Origin: Luteolibacter rhizosphaerae
GTDB taxonomy: Bacteria > Verrucomicrobiota > Verrucomicrobiia > Verrucomicrobiales > Akkermansiaceae
Length of the DNA: 64,000 bases
Assembly (NCBI RefSeq): GCF_025950095.1
Contig: NZ_JAPDDR010000002.1
Coordinates: 496,001 to 560,000, forward strand
Reading direction: 5' to 3'
Shown piece by piece: positions 28,651 through 35,577 of the stretch. The notes under the pieces were generated by a model. That model was given only the letters and a program-made list of their open reading frames with translations, did not search any database and was not told the DNA's origin. How positions within the stretch are numbered: position 1 is the first letter of the stretch; the number at the start of each line of letters is the position of its first letter. The position numbers and the translations under genes are program-made.

Positions 28651-29586
28651 ATGTTCTACCACGCTCAAAAATTAATCAATCCTATCGTTGCAGACGAACC
28701 CGACCCGTCAGCGGCGAACGCTCTTCAAGAGGGCCTTGGAGGTCAGTTCGGCGAGATGCGCACAATGATGCAGTATCTATTCCAGAGCTTCAACTTCCGG
28801 GGAGATGGGAAGGCCTACCACGACCTGATCCAAGGAATTGCCATCGAGGAAATCAGTCACGTGGAGTTGATCTCCAAAACTATTTCCCGGTTGCTTGATG
28901 GGGCGCCGGAATACCATGGCAAAAAATTTGATGTCCCCGGTAAGGGCGGCGCGGCAACCATGGAGATGGCGAAGGAGCAACAAAATCCCCATCATTTCAT
29001 CGTCGGTGCCCAAGGTGCGCTCCCTGTAGACGCGGCTGGCAATCCTTGGTGTGGAAGCTATGTCCATTGTAACGGGAACCTAATCCTCGATCTCCTCGAC
29101 AACCTTGTGCTGGAATCCACGGGGCGCCTTCAAAAGTGCCGCATCTACCAAATGTCTAAAAACAAGACCCTGCGCGCCACGGTGGCATTCCTGATCGCAC
29201 GGGACGAAGCCCATGAGATGGCTTTCGCAAAAGCGCTGGAGACGCTTGGGGTCGACTGGGCCAAGATCCTGCCGATTCCGAAATTCGATTCCTCGAAGTA
29301 TCCCGAGGTCAAGAAGCTGATCGATGCAGGCATTAACCGTGAGCAGTATCACTTCCGGTTGGACGGGTCTCAAATGGCAGCGATTTTCAGCGGTCCGGCT
29401 CCGGCGAATGACGGCACGGAGCTTATTACTCTTGCTGAGCCCAAACAATCCTATCCCGACCCCGGAGCTCCGGAACGCCCGGAAGAGTTCGCCCCCGGAC
29501 TCGATCCAGAGTTGCAGGCTTTGGCTGACGCGCTTGTAGAGGTAAAGGTTAAGATTCAAAAGTCCGCAAAGGAGTCGAAGGAATGA
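28651..29586 (+). CDS. Manganese catalase
   Basis: The 311-residue protein starts MFYHAQKLINPIVADEPDP and shows the dimanganese ligands of non-heme catalase: FGEMRTMMQYLFQSF, AIEEISHVELI, and RDEAHEMAF with glutamates and histidines in the expected places. The enzyme disproportionates hydrogen peroxide in the cytoplasm. The C-terminal 70 residues (PGAPERPEEFAPGLDPE and a Lys-rich end) form the usual extended tail. It follows the DUF892 gene closely. Confidence 0.93.
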   Translation: MFYHAQKLINPIVADEPDPSAANALQEGLGGQFGEMRTMMQYLFQSFNFRGDGKAYHDLIQGIAIEEISHVELISKTISRLLDGAPEYHGKKFDVPGKGGAATMEMAKEQQNPHHFIVGAQGALPVDAAGNPWCGSYVHCNGNLILDLLDNLVLESTGRLQKCRIYQMSKNKTLRATVAFLIARDEAHEMAFAKALETLGVDWAKILPIPKFDSSKYPEVKKLIDAGINREQYHFRLDGSQMAAIFSGPAPANDGTELITLAEPKQSYPDPGAPERPEEFAPGLDPELQALADALVEVKVKIQKSAKESKE

Positions 29587-31116
29587 GTCCCCGCGGGCAT
29601 CCATTCCGACTCGAGATGCGAAGCGGATCCTGACGCCACCCTTGGGTTAAGGCTCAATACGTGTGATAGTGGGCGCGGGTCGAATTCAGCCTCAGGTGGC
29701 TCCGCCTCATCAAGGACTTTCACGGCCGACATCCGAGACCAGGGCACAACTATGTCAGCTAGTGTTTCGACGATGCGACGCCCCCTTGGCGAGGAACTCT
29801 TGATGAAATTGTGAAGGCCCGCAAGGCAAGGGGAAATGGACTATCCCAGTTCGACCCCCGGGTCTTCTGATCCATCTCCATAGAAAAGCGCTCAGCGCGG
29901 ACTTGTCCCCCCTCTTTCTGTCGGCTCTCGCGAGATGCGCTTCGGGGCGCGGCGCATGCCACCTGCGGCGCCGCCATCGCCTTCTCGCTGATACGTTGCC
30001 CCGGATTCAAGCCCGCCTGCCGCTTTCAAGCCGGTAGGCGGGTGCTTTTTGGAGATGACCCAAGCTAGACGTGCGCGAGTTGGGCGCAGGGAGCGAACGG
30101 CCCTGCGACCACCACCTTCACGCTGGATAGTCCGGTGGGTTACTTCGGCCTGTGGTGGTGGGGGGACAACAGAACGTGCTGGAATCCTACTCGGGCACGG
30201 ACCTCGTGGCGCGCTTTTCACCCACCGCTTTCGTAGGCTCGGTGGTGATCATCGAGAAGCACTCTCCCCGATCCTCCTCCTCGCCCCAGACCTCAGCCAT
30301 CAGGATTACCTTGTTGCCGGTCCTGGTGAACCGGAGCTGCATAATCCCGCCGCCGCCACCCTGTAACCTTCCCAAGAATGCAGACGCGGAAATGAATCAC
30401 CTGATCGATTTGAACTGGTTTCGCCCGAGTCCGATTTTCAGTTGGTCTTTGCGGGAATACCCCCACCCGGGGCTTTTTCTGGCCGCGCGGCGTGTAGCGA
30501 AAAACCTCATGACATCAGGCGGAAAGTGGGGTCGGGGAGAGTCACCGTGCCCGCAGCGTCGGCCGGACGATCCGATTACTTTTCTTACTCGAACATCGAG
30601 GCCTCCAGCGCGTTGGCGACGAAACACTCCACGTCGAAGCCGTGTGTTCGATTTCGTTGGCTGTGCTCATTTGCCAAAACCATAGCATCACGGTCAACGC
30701 CGAGTGCCTGCTCGTCGGGCTGCAATGGTTGCCTACATTAGTGGGATCGGACCCGATTTGGCGGAATGCTATGATTGGCGAATATAGCCCCGACAATCTC
30801 TATCCGCGTGGACGGAGCGGCGTTGGAAAGTTGGGGGAGAAGGTATCCAAAGTCGTGGCGATGATCCATTGGGCAGTACAGCAGTGGTTGCGCGCCCCAA
30901 AAAACCTTTCGGTTGCTCGTTCCAGGACCTGGACCCTCTCTGACGGGGCGGCCGTCGGGGTTGCCTTTGAATGCCGTGAGAACGGGGCTTCGCAAAAAAC
31001 AATCTCACCGTGCGGAGTGCATCACCGAAAACTTAAGAAGGCTGAAACGCCTGCGCTCCAAAGGGCCATCCTGTAATGCCACCACCATCCGGCATGATCT
31101 GCGCGACAGGAATCCG
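29587..31116. other. Long gene-poor stretch between catalase and Ku
   Basis: About 1.5 kb with no gene I can support. It contains the terminator-like hairpin at 30012-30050. A minus-strand frame open from 30585 up to 30737 (ending FVANALEASMFE) has protein-like composition but no start codon. A short minus-strand ORF lies at 30187-30375. These look like remains of decayed genes. The last 100 bases should hold the Ku promoter. Confidence 0.5.
30012..30050 (+). terminator. Hairpin with T-run
   Basis: Eleven bases CCCGCCTGCCG pair with CGGTAGGCGGG (one G-T wobble) around a nine-base loop, followed by TGCTTTTT. This has the form of an intrinsic plus-strand terminator. It lies about 430 bases after the catalase gene, so it may belong to a lost gene. 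Confidence 0.55.
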
Positions 31117-32031
31117 ATGGCGCGATCTATTTGGAAAGGGGCAATCGCTTTCGGTCTCGTAAACATCCCGGTGGGTCTGACCAGTGCCGAGGAGCCTGAA
31201 GCGGAGGTCGGCCTTCATATGGTCGATAAGAAGAACAACGCCAGGATCCGGTATAAGAAGGTGAATGCTGAAACTGATGAGGAGGTGCCTTGGGACCGGA
31301 TTGTGAAAGGCTATGAGCATGAAGAGGGGCACTATGTCCTCTTCGATGACAAGGAGCTTGATTCAGTGCAGCCGGAGCTGACGAAAACCATCGAGATCAA
31401 ACAGTTCGTCGACCTTGCCGATATCGAGCCGTTGCTTTACGAAAAGCCTTATTACCTGGAGCCGGAGAAGCGTGGTATGAAAGCGTACGCCCTGCTGCGC
31501 GAAACACTTCGGCAGACCGGCAAGGCAGGGATTTCCCGTGTGGTGATCCGGACCAAGGAATACCTTGCCGCGATGTTCGTTCGTGACGACGTCATCGTCC
31601 TCGAACTTATGCGCTTTCCCGACGAGGTGAAGCCAGCCTCCAAGCTCGATTTACCATCAAGTAAGGATTCAAAATTCGAGCCCTCCAAGAAGGAGTTGGA
31701 GCTTGCGAAGAATCTCGTCGACCAAATGACCGAGGAGTGGAACCCGGAGGACCACCACGACGAGTATCAGGCCAAGCTGATGGAGTACATCGATGAAAAG
31801 ATTAAAAAAGGTGCGAGTGCCGCGGTGAAAGGCGGAGATCGCGAGAAGGAAGGATCGGTCACCGCGAGTAACACCATCGATCTTGCCGCTTACCTAGAGC
31901 GAAGCATCTTGGGCGGGAAAGGCTCCAAGAGCGGCGGTGTGGCACCCGCCAAAAAATCAGCGGCCAAGAAGGCGGCTAAAAAACTGCCGAAGAAAGCGTC
32001 CGCGAAGAAGGCAGCAAAGAAGTCCGCGTGA
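31117..32031 (+). CDS. ku: Ku-like DNA end-binding protein
   Basis: The 304-residue protein begins MARSIWKGAIAFGLVNIPV, the standard bacterial Ku N terminus, and has a full Ku core (LHMVDKKNNARIRYKKVN, RGMKAYALLRETLRQ, LELMRFPDE). The homodimer rings DNA ends and recruits LigD in non-homologous end joining. A Lys/Ala-rich tail of about 30 residues (KKSAAKKAAKKLPKK) follows the core, as in Ku proteins with an extended DNA-binding C terminus. ATG 31117 is chosen because upstream codons of the open frame are not family-like. It heads the operon with the gene at 32038 and the LigD fusion. Confidence 0.95.
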   Translation: MARSIWKGAIAFGLVNIPVGLTSAEEPEAEVGLHMVDKKNNARIRYKKVNAETDEEVPWDRIVKGYEHEEGHYVLFDDKELDSVQPELTKTIEIKQFVDLADIEPLLYEKPYYLEPEKRGMKAYALLRETLRQTGKAGISRVVIRTKEYLAAMFVRDDVIVLELMRFPDEVKPASKLDLPSSKDSKFEPSKKELELAKNLVDQMTEEWNPEDHHDEYQAKLMEYIDEKIKKGASAAVKGGDREKEGSVTASNTIDLAAYLERSILGGKGSKSGGVAPAKKSAAKKAAKKLPKKASAKKAAKKSA

Positions 32032-32037
32032 TTGCCT

Positions 32038-32406
32038 ATGTCCATTACCGCCATCGAAGGGCTCGCAGACTTGGGAATGTGGGACGATGCATGGGTGGCA
32101 TTGGATGGCCTCAGCCCTGGTGAACGTTCCACTCCGGCCGCCCTTCGCCTCCGCTTGCGATGCTGTCCGCGAACGCATGCATGGGCGTTGGGAGAAGCGG
32201 TGGCCGGAATGCTCCGGAACGGGCCCACCGCGGACCGCAACGCCGCAGCGGTGTTCTACCACGCCAATGCTCGCCGGCTTATCAACGCAGGAGACCGGCC
32301 CGGCGCGGCGGCGTCGGTTTCAGCTGCGATTGAAACGTGGCCGGACTATCACATGGCGATCATGCTAGATCCCTTGCTAAACTGTGATGGGCAGGAGCCT
32401 CGCTGA
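32038..32406 (+). CDS. Small helical-repeat-like protein between Ku and LigD
   Basis: The 122-residue protein (MSITAIEGLADLGMWDDAWV) has alternating short helices with TPR-like spacing (WDDAWVALDGLSPGE, AAAVFYHANARRLINAGDRP). I do not recognise a family. It starts six bases after Ku and ends 27 bases before the LigD fusion, so it is expressed with the end-joining enzymes and may bind one of them. There is no signal or membrane segment. Confidence 0.65.
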   Translation: MSITAIEGLADLGMWDDAWVALDGLSPGERSTPAALRLRLRCCPRTHAWALGEAVAGMLRNGPTADRNAAAVFYHANARRLINAGDRPGAAASVSAAIETWPDYHMAIMLDPLLNCDGQEPR

Positions 32407-32433: not shown

Positions 32434-35400
32434 ATGAAAATCGCGACCTTCAACGTCAACGGGGTCAACGGACGTCTGCCGGTACTGCTGCGTTGGCTCC
32501 AAGAAGCGAAGCCGGACGTGGTGTGCCTTCAGGAATTGAAGGCGTCACACGAAAAGTTCCCGATCTCGGCGATCCGGGACGCCGGCTATGGCGCTGTATG
32601 GCAGGGCCAGAAGAGCTGGAACGGCGTTGCGATCCTAGCGCGCGGATCCGAACCCCTTGAGACCCGCAGAGGGCTGCCCGGCGATCCGGACGACACTCAC
32701 AGCCGATATCTGGAAGCGGCCGTGGACGGGCTGCTCGTGGGATGTCTTTACCTGCCGAACGGTAACCCTGCCCCCGGGGCGAAGTTCGAATACAAGCTCC
32801 GGTGGTTCGACCGGCTGCTTGAACACGCCCACGGACTTCTCTGTCGGGATCTGCCGATTGTCCTGGCGGGGGACTACAACGTGATGCCCACGGAGTTGGA
32901 TGTCTACAAGCCGGAGAAGTGGGTTGATGACGCACTGTTCCGGCCGGAGGTCCGCGAGTGTTTTCGAAAGCTGGTCGACCAAGGATGGGCCGATGCGATT
33001 CGCGCTCTCCATCCCGACGAGCGGATCTACACGTTTTGGGACTACCTGCGGAATGCCTATGGCCGCAACGCCGGACTTCGGCTCGATCACCTCCTGCTCA
33101 GCCCCAAGCTCGCGACTCGGCTGGTAAGAGCGGAAGTAGACAAAGAGGTGCGTGGTTGGGAGAAGGCAAGCGATCACGCACCGGTGTGGATCGAACTCGG
33201 GAAGGCGAAAGTCCGAGCGAAAGCGCAAAAGAAGGCCGCAGCGAGGCGCGCGAAGACGAAGGACTCGGAGCAGTCCGAGGCTGCGTCTCCGCTGGGCAAG
33301 TACAAGGCGAAGCGGAACTTCGCAAAAACGCCGGAGCCCGGCCCTCAGATCGGGGATGCCTCAGGTCGCTCATTCGTGGTGCAAGAACATCACGCGCGGC
33401 GGCATCATTTCGACTTCCGGCTTGAGATTGACGGCGTTCTCGTGAGTTGGGCGGTCCCGAAGGGTATTCCCGAAGATCTCGTTGCGAAGCGCCTTGCCGT
33501 CCACGTTGAGGACCATCCGCTGGAATATGGGAAGTTCGAGGGCGTGATCCCTGAAGGTAACTATGGTGCCGGCACGGTGGCGATCTGGGACAAGGGGACG
33601 TGGGAGCCGATGGACAAGGGATGGCGGAAGGACTTCGCGAAGGGCACTCTGAAGTTCCATCTCCGGGGTGATCGCTTGAGCGGCCCCTACTTGCTTGCCC
33701 GGATGAAGGAGGAACCGAATTGGATGCTGAAGAAGCTGGAGCCCTCCACGCATCCGCAGCCCAGCTTTGAAGCCGAGCGGGAGACGCCGCGGTATGTAGC
33801 TCCCCAGCTGGCGCAGGTCGTATCCACAGTTCCCGCCGGCCGCGACGTCGTCCACGAACTCAAATTCGACGGGTATCGGCTGATCGTCGTCAAGCACCGT
33901 GGCCAGCTGACGGTCTACACCCGCAATGGTCACGACTGGACCGACAAGTTCCGCCCTCTCGCGAAGCACCTGACAGCAGTCTCTAAGAAGGATTTCATCC
34001 TCGATGGAGAGGCTGTCGTCTGGGACGAGAAGGGGCGAAGCAATTTCGGAGATCTCCAAGCGGCCCTTAAGGGGCGTCCCAATGAGATATCCTTCGTTGC
34101 CTTCGACCTCCTGCACTTCGACGGCTTCAACTTGCGGGACTTGCCGCTTGCCGAACGGCAGAAGCGCTTGGCGGAGGTGGTCGGCGAAGAAGGGACGGTG
34201 AAACGCTCCACCACCTGGTCTCCTGAAATGGGTGCCGATCTCTACAGGCAGGCTTGCAAGCTGGGACTGGAGGGCATCATCACCAAGAAACTGAGTGGAA
34301 CCTACAAGCCCGGCGACCGGCGGGACTGGACGAAATCAAAATGCCGTCCCCGCCAGGAGTTCATCGTGTGCGGCTATACGCCACCTAAAAGCTCATTGCC
34401 GGGGTTTTCATCGCTGGTCCTCGGGACATTTGAAAACGGGAAGCTTGTTCCTCGTGGCAAGGTCGGCACCGGGTTCACTGAGGATGACCGGCGGGAATAT
34501 TTGGCATTGTTGAAGCCGCTCAAGACCAGCAAGCCCGCGTTCCCGTTTGATGAGGAGGTGATTTGGCTGAAGCCCATCAAGGTTGCAGAGGTGGTGTTTG
34601 CCGAGATCACCCGGGATGGATCCGTGCGACAGGCTTCGTTCGTTGCATTTCGGGAGGACAAGAGCCCGGATGAGGTCCACATGGATGCGGTCCAGACCGC
34701 GACTGCTGACGGCAAGGGGGCGAAGGTGGCCGGGATCGCGATCAGCAATCCGGACCGGATGGTCTTTCCCGGCGACGGGGTGGCCAAGCTGGAGGTCGCC
34801 AAGTATTACGAGCGGGTTGGAGAGCTGATGCTCCCCTTTGTGGCCAACCGGCCTCTCGCGTTGTTGCGGGCACCGGCGGGAATTACAGGCGAACTGTTCT
34901 TCCAAAAGTCGTTCACCACCCACATACCCGACGGGGTGAAGCAGGCGAAGTTACCGGATGGCGACGACATCTTCTTCATCAAAGACGTGAAAGGCCTGGT
35001 CTCACTCGCGCAGTTCAGCGCCATCGAATTTCATCCGTGGGGTGCTCCTCTCAAGAATGTGGAGAAGCCTGACTTCCTGACGTGGGACCTGGATCCCGAG
35101 GAGTCCGTTCCGTGGAAGGAAGTGCTCGGCGCAGCGTTGCTGCTGCGCGACTTTCTTCGGGAGCGGGATCTCGAAACCGTTGTGAAGACCTCAGGGGGGA
35201 AGGGGCTTCACATCATGCTTCACCTGAAGCCGAACCACGATTGGACAGTGATGAAACCGTTTGCCAAGGCCGTTGCATCTGCCGTGGCAGCCTTCAATCC
35301 TTCGCGATTCACGGTCACCTCGACCAAGTCCAAACGGACCGGCCGAATCTACATCGACTGGATGCGGAACGGGCGCGGAGCGACATGCATCGCCCCATGG

Positions 35401-35577
35401 GGCCTTCGCGCCAGACCGGGCGCAACAGTCTCCATGCCCATCAATTGGGCCCAGTTGCCTGAGTTGGCGAAGGCCGGATTTACGATACACCAGCCGCCGG
35501 AGTACCCGAAAGAATGGGAACAGCTCCAGCCCCACACCATCCCGATGGCGCTGCTGAAAGACCTTGGGGTCGCTTGA
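32434..35577 (+). CDS. ligD: Exonuclease III fused to DNA ligase D (four-domain end-joining protein)
   Basis: This 1047-residue protein joins two enzymes. Residues 1-255 are a complete exonuclease III/AP endonuclease with catalytic residues N7, E34 (CLQELK), D147/N149 (LAGDYNV), D218 (LRLDHLLLS) and D247/H248 (SDHAP). A Lys/Ala-rich linker (256-285) leads to a LigD phosphoesterase domain (about 286-440) with H319, H325, D327, R329 and H361. Next is an ATP-dependent ligase (about 455-755) with nucleophile K477 in HELKFDGYR. The polymerase/primase domain (about 765-1047) has metal-binding D885/D887 (TWDLDPEE) and GGKGLH. LigD is normally PE-LIG-POL or POL-PE-LIG without ExoIII. All active sites look intact. 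It would process, fill and seal broken ends held by Ku. Confidence 0.93.
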   Translation: MKIATFNVNGVNGRLPVLLRWLQEAKPDVVCLQELKASHEKFPISAIRDAGYGAVWQGQKSWNGVAILARGSEPLETRRGLPGDPDDTHSRYLEAAVDGLLVGCLYLPNGNPAPGAKFEYKLRWFDRLLEHAHGLLCRDLPIVLAGDYNVMPTELDVYKPEKWVDDALFRPEVRECFRKLVDQGWADAIRALHPDERIYTFWDYLRNAYGRNAGLRLDHLLLSPKLATRLVRAEVDKEVRGWEKASDHAPVWIELGKAKVRAKAQKKAAARRAKTKDSEQSEAASPLGKYKAKRNFAKTPEPGPQIGDASGRSFVVQEHHARRHHFDFRLEIDGVLVSWAVPKGIPEDLVAKRLAVHVEDHPLEYGKFEGVIPEGNYGAGTVAIWDKGTWEPMDKGWRKDFAKGTLKFHLRGDRLSGPYLLARMKEEPNWMLKKLEPSTHPQPSFEAERETPRYVAPQLAQVVSTVPAGRDVVHELKFDGYRLIVVKHRGQLTVYTRNGHDWTDKFRPLAKHLTAVSKKDFILDGEAVVWDEKGRSNFGDLQAALKGRPNEISFVAFDLLHFDGFNLRDLPLAERQKRLAEVVGEEGTVKRSTTWSPEMGADLYRQACKLGLEGIITKKLSGTYKPGDRRDWTKSKCRPRQEFIVCGYTPPKSSLPGFSSLVLGTFENGKLVPRGKVGTGFTEDDRREYLALLKPLKTSKPAFPFDEEVIWLKPIKVAEVVFAEITRDGSVRQASFVAFREDKSPDEVHMDAVQTATADGKGAKVAGIAISNPDRMVFPGDGVAKLEVAKYYERVGELMLPFVANRPLALLRAPAGITGELFFQKSFTTHIPDGVKQAKLPDGDDIFFIKDVKGLVSLAQFSAIEFHPWGAPLKNVEKPDFLTWDLDPEESVPWKEVLGAALLLRDFLRERDLETVVKTSGGKGLHIMLHLKPNHDWTVMKPFAKAVASAVAAFNPSRFTVTSTKSKRTGRIYIDWMRNGRGATCIAPWGLRARPGATVSMPINWAQLPELAKAGFTIHQPPEYPKEWEQLQPHTIPMALLKDLGVA

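Follow-up and report, generated by a model that had tools for sequence, protein, structure and literature searches.

An exonuclease III domain fused in frame to ligase D in Verrucomicrobiota belongs to a subfamily that co-occurs with Ku

Bacterial end joining is usually drawn as the work of Ku and ligase D (LigD), with the phosphoesterase (PE) domain as LigD's own means of end cleaning. A gene of Luteolibacter rhizosphaerae raises the question of what an exonuclease III (ExoIII, Xth) contributes when it forms part of the same polypeptide as a LigD. The window analysed is a stretch of 64,000 nucleotides (contig NZ_JAPDDR010000002.1, positions 496,001–560,000, forward strand), in which an earlier note had described one uninterrupted frame joining a full ExoIII through a Lys/Ala linker to complete PE, ligase (LIG) and polymerase (POL) domains, encoded beside Ku. 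The open reading frames of the window bear out the first of these points, as 32434–35577 (+) is a single ORF of 1047 aa with an ATG start and no internal stops. The gene, its domains and its upstream neighbours are as follows (window coordinates):

31108..32031 (+): Ku gene, upstream of the fused gene (PF02735, TIGR02772)
32032..32406 (+): 124-aa ORF with a TTG start, between ku and the fused gene (no Pfam or NCBIfam family)
32434..33201 (+): ExoIII (Xth) domain, residues 1–256 (PF03372, TIGR00195; best structure matches NExo 2jc4/6fk4, 213 bits)
33202..33291 (+): linker, residues 257–286, about 30 aa, Lys/Ala rich (alignment of six fused proteins)
33292..33741 (+): LigD 3'-phosphoesterase (PE) domain, residues 287–436 (TIGR02777, PF13298)
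33766..34698 (+): ATP-dependent ligase (LIG) domain, residues 445–755, KxDG at 477 (PF01068, PF04679, TIGR02779)
34726..35553 (+): primase-polymerase (POL) domain, residues 765–1040, DxD at 885/887 (PF21686, TIGR02778)

Profile matches confirmed both halves as complete. All Pfam matches on the fused protein exceed the curated cut-offs (Exo_endo_phos 4–248, LigD_N, i.e. PE, 317–423, DNA_ligase_A_M 457–636, DNA_ligase_A_C 657–743 and LigD_Prim-Pol 785–1024), as do the NCBIfam matches to exonuclease III (TIGR00195 exoDNase_III, 251.4 bits against a cut-off of 182.6; TIGR00633, 237 against 99), to the three LigD domains (TIGR02777 PE, 196 against 144; TIGR02779 LIG, 286 against 228; TIGR02778 POL, 282 against 215) and to DNA ligase D as a whole (TIGR02776, 569 against 373). 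The ExoIII half carries N7, E34, Y106, N109, D147, N149, D218, D247 and H248. In an alignment of the six fused proteins found in this study (see below) the LIG motif (K477, D479, G480), the POL residues D885 and D887 and the PE positions H319, H325, D327, R329, H361 and Y365, which we take to be functional residues of that domain, are kept in every copy; the sole exception among the catalytic positions checked is Tyr973, which is Phe in two copies (L123 and L124). The predicted gene product is a LigD of PE-LIG-POL order with four catalytic domains, the added one being ExoIII at the N terminus, attached by a short variable linker. Structure prediction for the full-length protein was of low quality (mean pLDDT 60.8, pTM 0.37), with confidence mainly in the ExoIII part.

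The position beside Ku held only in part: in the host genome a Ku gene lies just upstream (304 bits against the TIGR02772 cut-off of 150), but Ku was found within the fetched flank at just two of the six fused loci. The 124-aa ORF that separates ku from the fused gene is no more than a candidate gene. The host genome also encodes two other LigDs (64 and 60% identical), neither with an ExoIII domain; a second Ku adjoins one of them. It has a separate ExoIII as well, which scores above the cut-offs of TIGR00633 and TIGR00195. A search for Nfo gave a single weak match (19.9 bits), below the cut-off.

The ExoIII type was then followed through genome samples and a plasmid collection, with a match defined as E <= 1e-60. 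In the host family (Akkermansiaceae), with up to eight candidates scored per genome, it occurs in 7/260 genomes as nine genes. Six of these are fused to LigD and come from five genomes (G000, which is the genome of the window, G143, G114, G242 and two in G157), and three are unfused (G097, G154 and the second gene of G143). The fusion is therefore rare (5/260 family genomes). The order sample (9/288 genomes with the ExoIII type) added two to the family set, both unfused, and the phylum sample, with up to five candidates scored per genome, gave 4/387, two of them fused. An order that we refer to as Bacteroidota-like has the ExoIII type in 27/248 genomes, in frames of 191–324 aa; none is fused. 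Three ExoIII sequences from this order (L139, L142 and L150) are protein-identical to loci labelled Bacteroidetes, Bacteroidota and Chitinophagales, hence the name used here. In the family, order, phylum, Bacteroidota-like and sphingomonad samples searched, the fusion is not a common LigD subclass, in line with the earlier view that no standard ExoIII-LigD fusion is known. In the sphingomonad order 390/396 genomes match, at a threshold that there also admits Xth of about 60% identity; among the matches listed just two frames exceed 700 aa, neither with LigD. These two (G1117, 852 aa, and G1376, 710 aa) were rejected as fusions, since the additional length is open frame upstream of xth that contains no LigD domain. 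A scan of GTDB contigs gave one fused locus among the best 80 of 585 relatives, in an Akkermansiaceae MAG (L013, the same locus as G242). In the plasmid collection the ExoIII type is found in 292 records, in 11 of which one place covers 80% of the fused protein, and among those opened a single frame is present only in decayed copies from Mycetohabitans. The phage collection gave 83 matching records, none covering 80% of the fused protein; among the 15 matches listed the ligase region alone was matched. Thus no further intact ExoIII-LigD fusion was found outside the five Verrucomicrobiota genomes in the samples looked at.

Mycetohabitans was considered as a second, independent functional fusion and rejected because its ExoIII half is decayed. 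In M. rhizoxinica B12 (a CDS of 1176 aa) and in the HKI 454 copy, Asn stands at catalytic Asp147 and Glu at Asp218, and the ExoIII half is without the Asp-His end. M. endofungorum has two overlapping genes, not one fused frame. The records of M. rhizoxinica H14 and H15 are annotated with two separate genes.

The six intact copies appear to share one origin. In a tree of 23 LigDs they form one clade (bootstrap/SH-aLRT 96/98), and of 200 bootstrap trees 98% imply a single fusion change. Three unfused LigDs make up the branch next to this clade, namely that of G265, the C11 copy of the window genome and a gene of G143, the last of which overlaps xth at its end. A rapid tree of 120 ExoIII domains, built without the short match from L117, also grouped these six (SH-aLRT 89, which is under the starred level). 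In none of the five other fused copies do the two halves have a stop or frameshift between them. Between the window and a relative (L120), dN is 0.055–0.085 in the four domains and dS at least 1.39 (saturated in places), while dN of the linker is 0.73; all five pairwise comparisons show a dN far lower than dS in each of the catalytic domains. Across the six fused proteins the linker has a dN of 0.59–1.29 and a nearly constant length. Its sequence is not conserved, the answer to a check that had been proposed earlier (17–37% identity in the linker as opposed to 58–91% in the catalytic domains). These rates indicate that all four domains are under purifying selection and that the linker alone drifts.

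The ExoIII type was also compared with the distribution of Ku and ligD. In the Bacteroidota-like order Ku is present in 24/27 ExoIII-positive genomes as against 32/221 ExoIII-negative ones (Fisher p 5e-15, ancestry and genome size being ignored); the searches for the ExoIII type and for Ku each took in 248 genomes, which from their matching handles were taken as the same set. In Verrucomicrobiales the figures are 9/9 ExoIII-positive as against 2/15 hand-chosen ExoIII-negative genomes, again ignoring ancestry and genome size, and it should be noted that 13 of those 15 are from the same genus and that G000 was counted from the window. The ExoIII type also adjoins ligD in Bosea, several Sphingomonadaceae, Dyadobacter, Mycetohabitans and G143. 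Among 121 ExoIII sequences (counting the window; L122, L016 and L149 were removed as duplicates) 15 have ligD nearby, eight are in frame with LigD (the six intact copies and two identical decayed ones from Mycetohabitans) and for 98 the fetched flank contains no match to ligD, a number that is an upper bound because the flank varied between loci, from as much as 6 kb to no more than 1.5 kb. At 70 of 80 loci (the best 80 of 585 relatives) the exonuclease alone was found within up to 6 kb, and in the sphingomonad order a LIG or POL sequence adjoins ExoIII in 6/30 loci returned. Adjacency to ligD recurs, yet is not the rule. Together, the Ku co-occurrence and the occasional ligD neighbourhood of the subfamily may be weightier than the fusion itself. 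Neither of them figured in the earlier note.

Where ligD and xth are neighbours, the loci could be divided by the presence of PE. Eight sphingomonad loci (L027, L043, L054, L060, L189, L190, L226 and L227) have a ligD frame without a PE match; in all eight xth starts within 11 nt of the end of the PE-less ligD, in five (L043, L189, L190, L226 and L227) the two overlap by 4 nt, and in L227 ku follows xth. It has been proposed that PolX exonucleases make up for a missing nuclease domain of LigD (PMC9226535, accessible text), and the PE-less pairs suggest that the ExoIII type could do so too. As a general replacement of PE it was rejected, as PE is present at no fewer than 11 loci where ligD lies near xth (L018, L033, L049, L055, L115, L117, L118, L119, L127, L164 and L191). 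Six others (L156, L197, L198, L201, L202 and L221) end short of the expected PE site and are outside these counts.

The active site of the ExoIII half was compared with those of its solved relatives. The best of these are structures of NExo, an ExoIII-family 3'-phosphatase of N. meningitidis (PDB 2jc4 and 6fk4), followed by 2voa (186 bits), which we take to be a structure from Archaeoglobus, 1ako (149), presumably E. coli ExoIII, and APE1 entries (about 120–125). According to the accessible text of PMC6294502, NExo lacks AP-endonuclease activity and Asn108 is important for its phosphatase; changing its His167 to Gly or Ser, the residues reported at this position in AP endonucleases, yields some AP activity, the Gly form being far slower than NApe. 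The equivalent of Asn108 is present here, as Asn109, in 121/121 subfamily sequences and in 31/32 of a further sphingomonad set (one has Lys). The equivalent of His167 is absent: Leu168 takes its place in the window and in every other subfamily sequence that has a residue at this position (120/120 in total), and in 32/32 of the further set, so that the likeness to NExo is incomplete. In a control with hand-picked, more distant sphingomonad Xth (58–62% identity) the same Leu was found in 15/15. Eleven of these come from genomes with a single match, in which the Leu-type Xth may serve as the general AP endonuclease. The control shows that Leu does not exclude AP incision, and it weakened Leu168 as a proof of NExo-like specificity. 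The separate ExoIII of the host genome has Gly at the NExo-167 position, so that the fused copy need not serve as a general AP endonuclease. On the whole the active-site residues lean towards 3'-end healing and do not decide between this and AP incision.

The reading that we favour, at a probability of about 0.53, is that the fused protein would be an end-healing module for Ku-LigD joining. Ku would bring the enzyme to a double-strand break, where the ExoIII domain would clear blocked 3' ends (3'-phosphate, 3'-phosphoglycolate or 3'-unsaturated aldehyde) and might also trim a few nucleotides; POL would then fill in, PE would trim a 3' ribonucleotide end and LIG would seal last. This order of events after recruitment, from clearing to sealing, is the one we infer to be most likely. 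The fusion would deliver the nuclease 1:1 at the break, and AP sites close to breaks may be a further target for incision by the protein. Since PE itself is described as a 3'-phosphatase and 3'-ribonuclease (PMC13201618, accessible text), 3'-end healing by ExoIII would be partly redundant. More broadly, and tentatively, the ExoIII subfamily might be an unrecognised third component of one bacterial end-joining branch (Ku, LigD, Xth), adding to PE or, in some sphingomonads, replacing it; the Verrucomicrobiota fusion would be its extreme form, one enzyme that both joins dirty breaks and completes abasic-site repair after a glycosylase.

The main rival to end healing is AP-site incision by a near-complete base-excision enzyme. 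ExoIII would make the incision on the 5' side of the abasic site, the 5'-dRP would be taken off by the LigD part, POL would fill the one-nucleotide gap and LIG would seal, with Ku-dependent joining as a second use. We think this unlikely, although several published properties speak for it: in the accessible parts of the sources, the LigDs of B. subtilis and P. aeruginosa have 5'-dRP lyase activity and the former, by its dRP-lyase, polymerase and ligase activities together, repairs uracil-containing DNA in a reaction reconstituted with UDG and an AP endonuclease, after the cut by the latter (PMC4770248), so that a fused AP endonuclease would supply the missing incision step; AP-lyase is also described in the B. 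subtilis PolDom (PMC13201618), and mycobacterial LigC1 binds ExoIII and XthA (PMC5663958). The distant sphingomonad Xth add that Leu may tolerate AP sites. This has to be set against Leu168 itself, at a position where Gly or Ser is reported for AP endonucleases, against the Gly-type ExoIII that the genome already encodes and against the co-occurrence with Ku, which points to breaks.

Other explanations carry less weight. A role of the ExoIII domain chiefly in end resection for microhomology joining, through sustained 3'-5' digestion, would fit the exonuclease activity described for NExo and NApe (PMC6294502, accessible text), but in a related in vitro gap repair EndoIV performed best, which the accessible text of PMC5663958 links to its having no strong 3'-5' exonuclease, and we regard the proposal as quite improbable. 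Joining of two independent enzymes for co-expression alone, the linker being cut in the cell, is very improbable: a Lys/Ala-rich linker that drifts in sequence and the existence of unfused ligD-xth pairs are what it would lead one to expect, whereas retention of the frame in 6/6 copies at nearly constant linker length is not. An assembly or frameshift artefact, of which the decayed Mycetohabitans fusion with its dead-looking ExoIII half might be a reminder, is refuted for the Verrucomicrobiota copies by their number (six intact copies in five separate genomes) and by dN well below dS.

Compared with known systems, the LigD part has the same three domains, order and motifs as PE-LIG-POL ligase D (P. 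aeruginosa type, PMC1378119, accessible text; TIGR02776), with Ku nearby in the host genome, and differs in the N-terminal ExoIII of about 256 residues on its linker of about 30 residues. NExo, the best sequence match among solved structures, shares the Asn at N108; the fused ExoIII differs from it in having Leu for His167 and in being joined to a ligase. The stand-alone ExoIII beside ligD (Sphingobium, Bosea, Dyadobacter and Mycetohabitans endofungorum) is of the same subfamily (58–76% identical to the fused domain) but is a separate gene, and eight of its sphingomonad ligD partners are without PE. PgVPolX, a giant-virus polymerase-lyase-ligase (PMC5537341), is similar in concept, being a single chain with several activities of base excision; it is built on a Pol beta-like core with a C-terminal domain, and the accessible part of that paper mentions neither ExoIII nor LigD. 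A literature search, with most subscription papers outside its reach, found no description of an ExoIII-LigD fusion or pairing. An older review gives LigD arrangements as combinations of nuclease (PE), ligase and polymerase (PMC1378119, accessible text), and a survey places 20 additional domains of Ku and LigD proteins in a supplementary table (PMC7719229, main text), so that an earlier bare listing of the fusion is possible. The conserved fusion, the Ku co-occurrence and the ligD neighbours together hint at an overlooked end-processing partner in bacterial end joining. They also connect end joining to base excision repair in a way that can be tested, and the fused protein could be a practical four-domain tool for repair in vitro.

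In five sphingomonad loci a ligD gene without a PE match is followed by an xth gene of the subfamily found in the fused protein, the end of the one overlapping the start of the other by 4 nt in each case.

Pairs of ligD (no PE match) and xth in sphingomonads (coordinates within each locus)
L226, 1529-4266: ligD-xth pair
L227, 1812-5400: ligD-xth pair, then ku
L189, 2890-5672: ligD-xth pair
L190, 2830-5612: ligD-xth pair
L043, 382-3116: ligD-xth pair

The Verrucomicrobiota-family genome G143 carries a fused ExoIII-LigD gene and, at another site, an unfused PE-LIG-POL ligD with a 4-nt overlap between its end and the beginning of xth (L127 1414-4664, G143:C18). The arrangement varies within Mycetohabitans, as xth and ligD are separate, overlapping genes in M. 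endofungorum, whereas in M. rhizoxinica they make up a single long frame in which the ExoIII half has decayed. The POL end differs in Mycetohabitans HKI 454.

Mycetohabitans xth/ligD regions (coordinates within each locus)
L114, 4001-7531
L116, 4001-7348
L115, 4001-7511

Two plasmid copies appear broken: on an Ancylobacter plasmid (L117 2001-2784) the xth adjacent to ligD is split in two frames, and on Novosphingobium pSA2 (L191 3034-5504) the ligD frame begins within the ligase region. The group holding the record L079 (genome G762), titled Azovibrio restrictus, has ExoIII matches that include exact ones to Bacteroidota records, and this title may be that of a mislabelled MAG.

Around the fused gene of the window, the 124-aa ORF between ku and the fusion (32032-32406) has no match in Pfam or NCBIfam, and upstream of ku a manganese catalase match (28651-29586) scores 207 bits, below the model cut-off of 350. 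A 717-aa ORF, catalase-like by eye, precedes the fused gene of the relative L120. In G157, a Verrucomicrobiota-family genome with two fused copies, one Ku match (G157:C13:286085-286624) falls in an open frame of 532 aa, which exceeds in length the other Ku-match frames listed.
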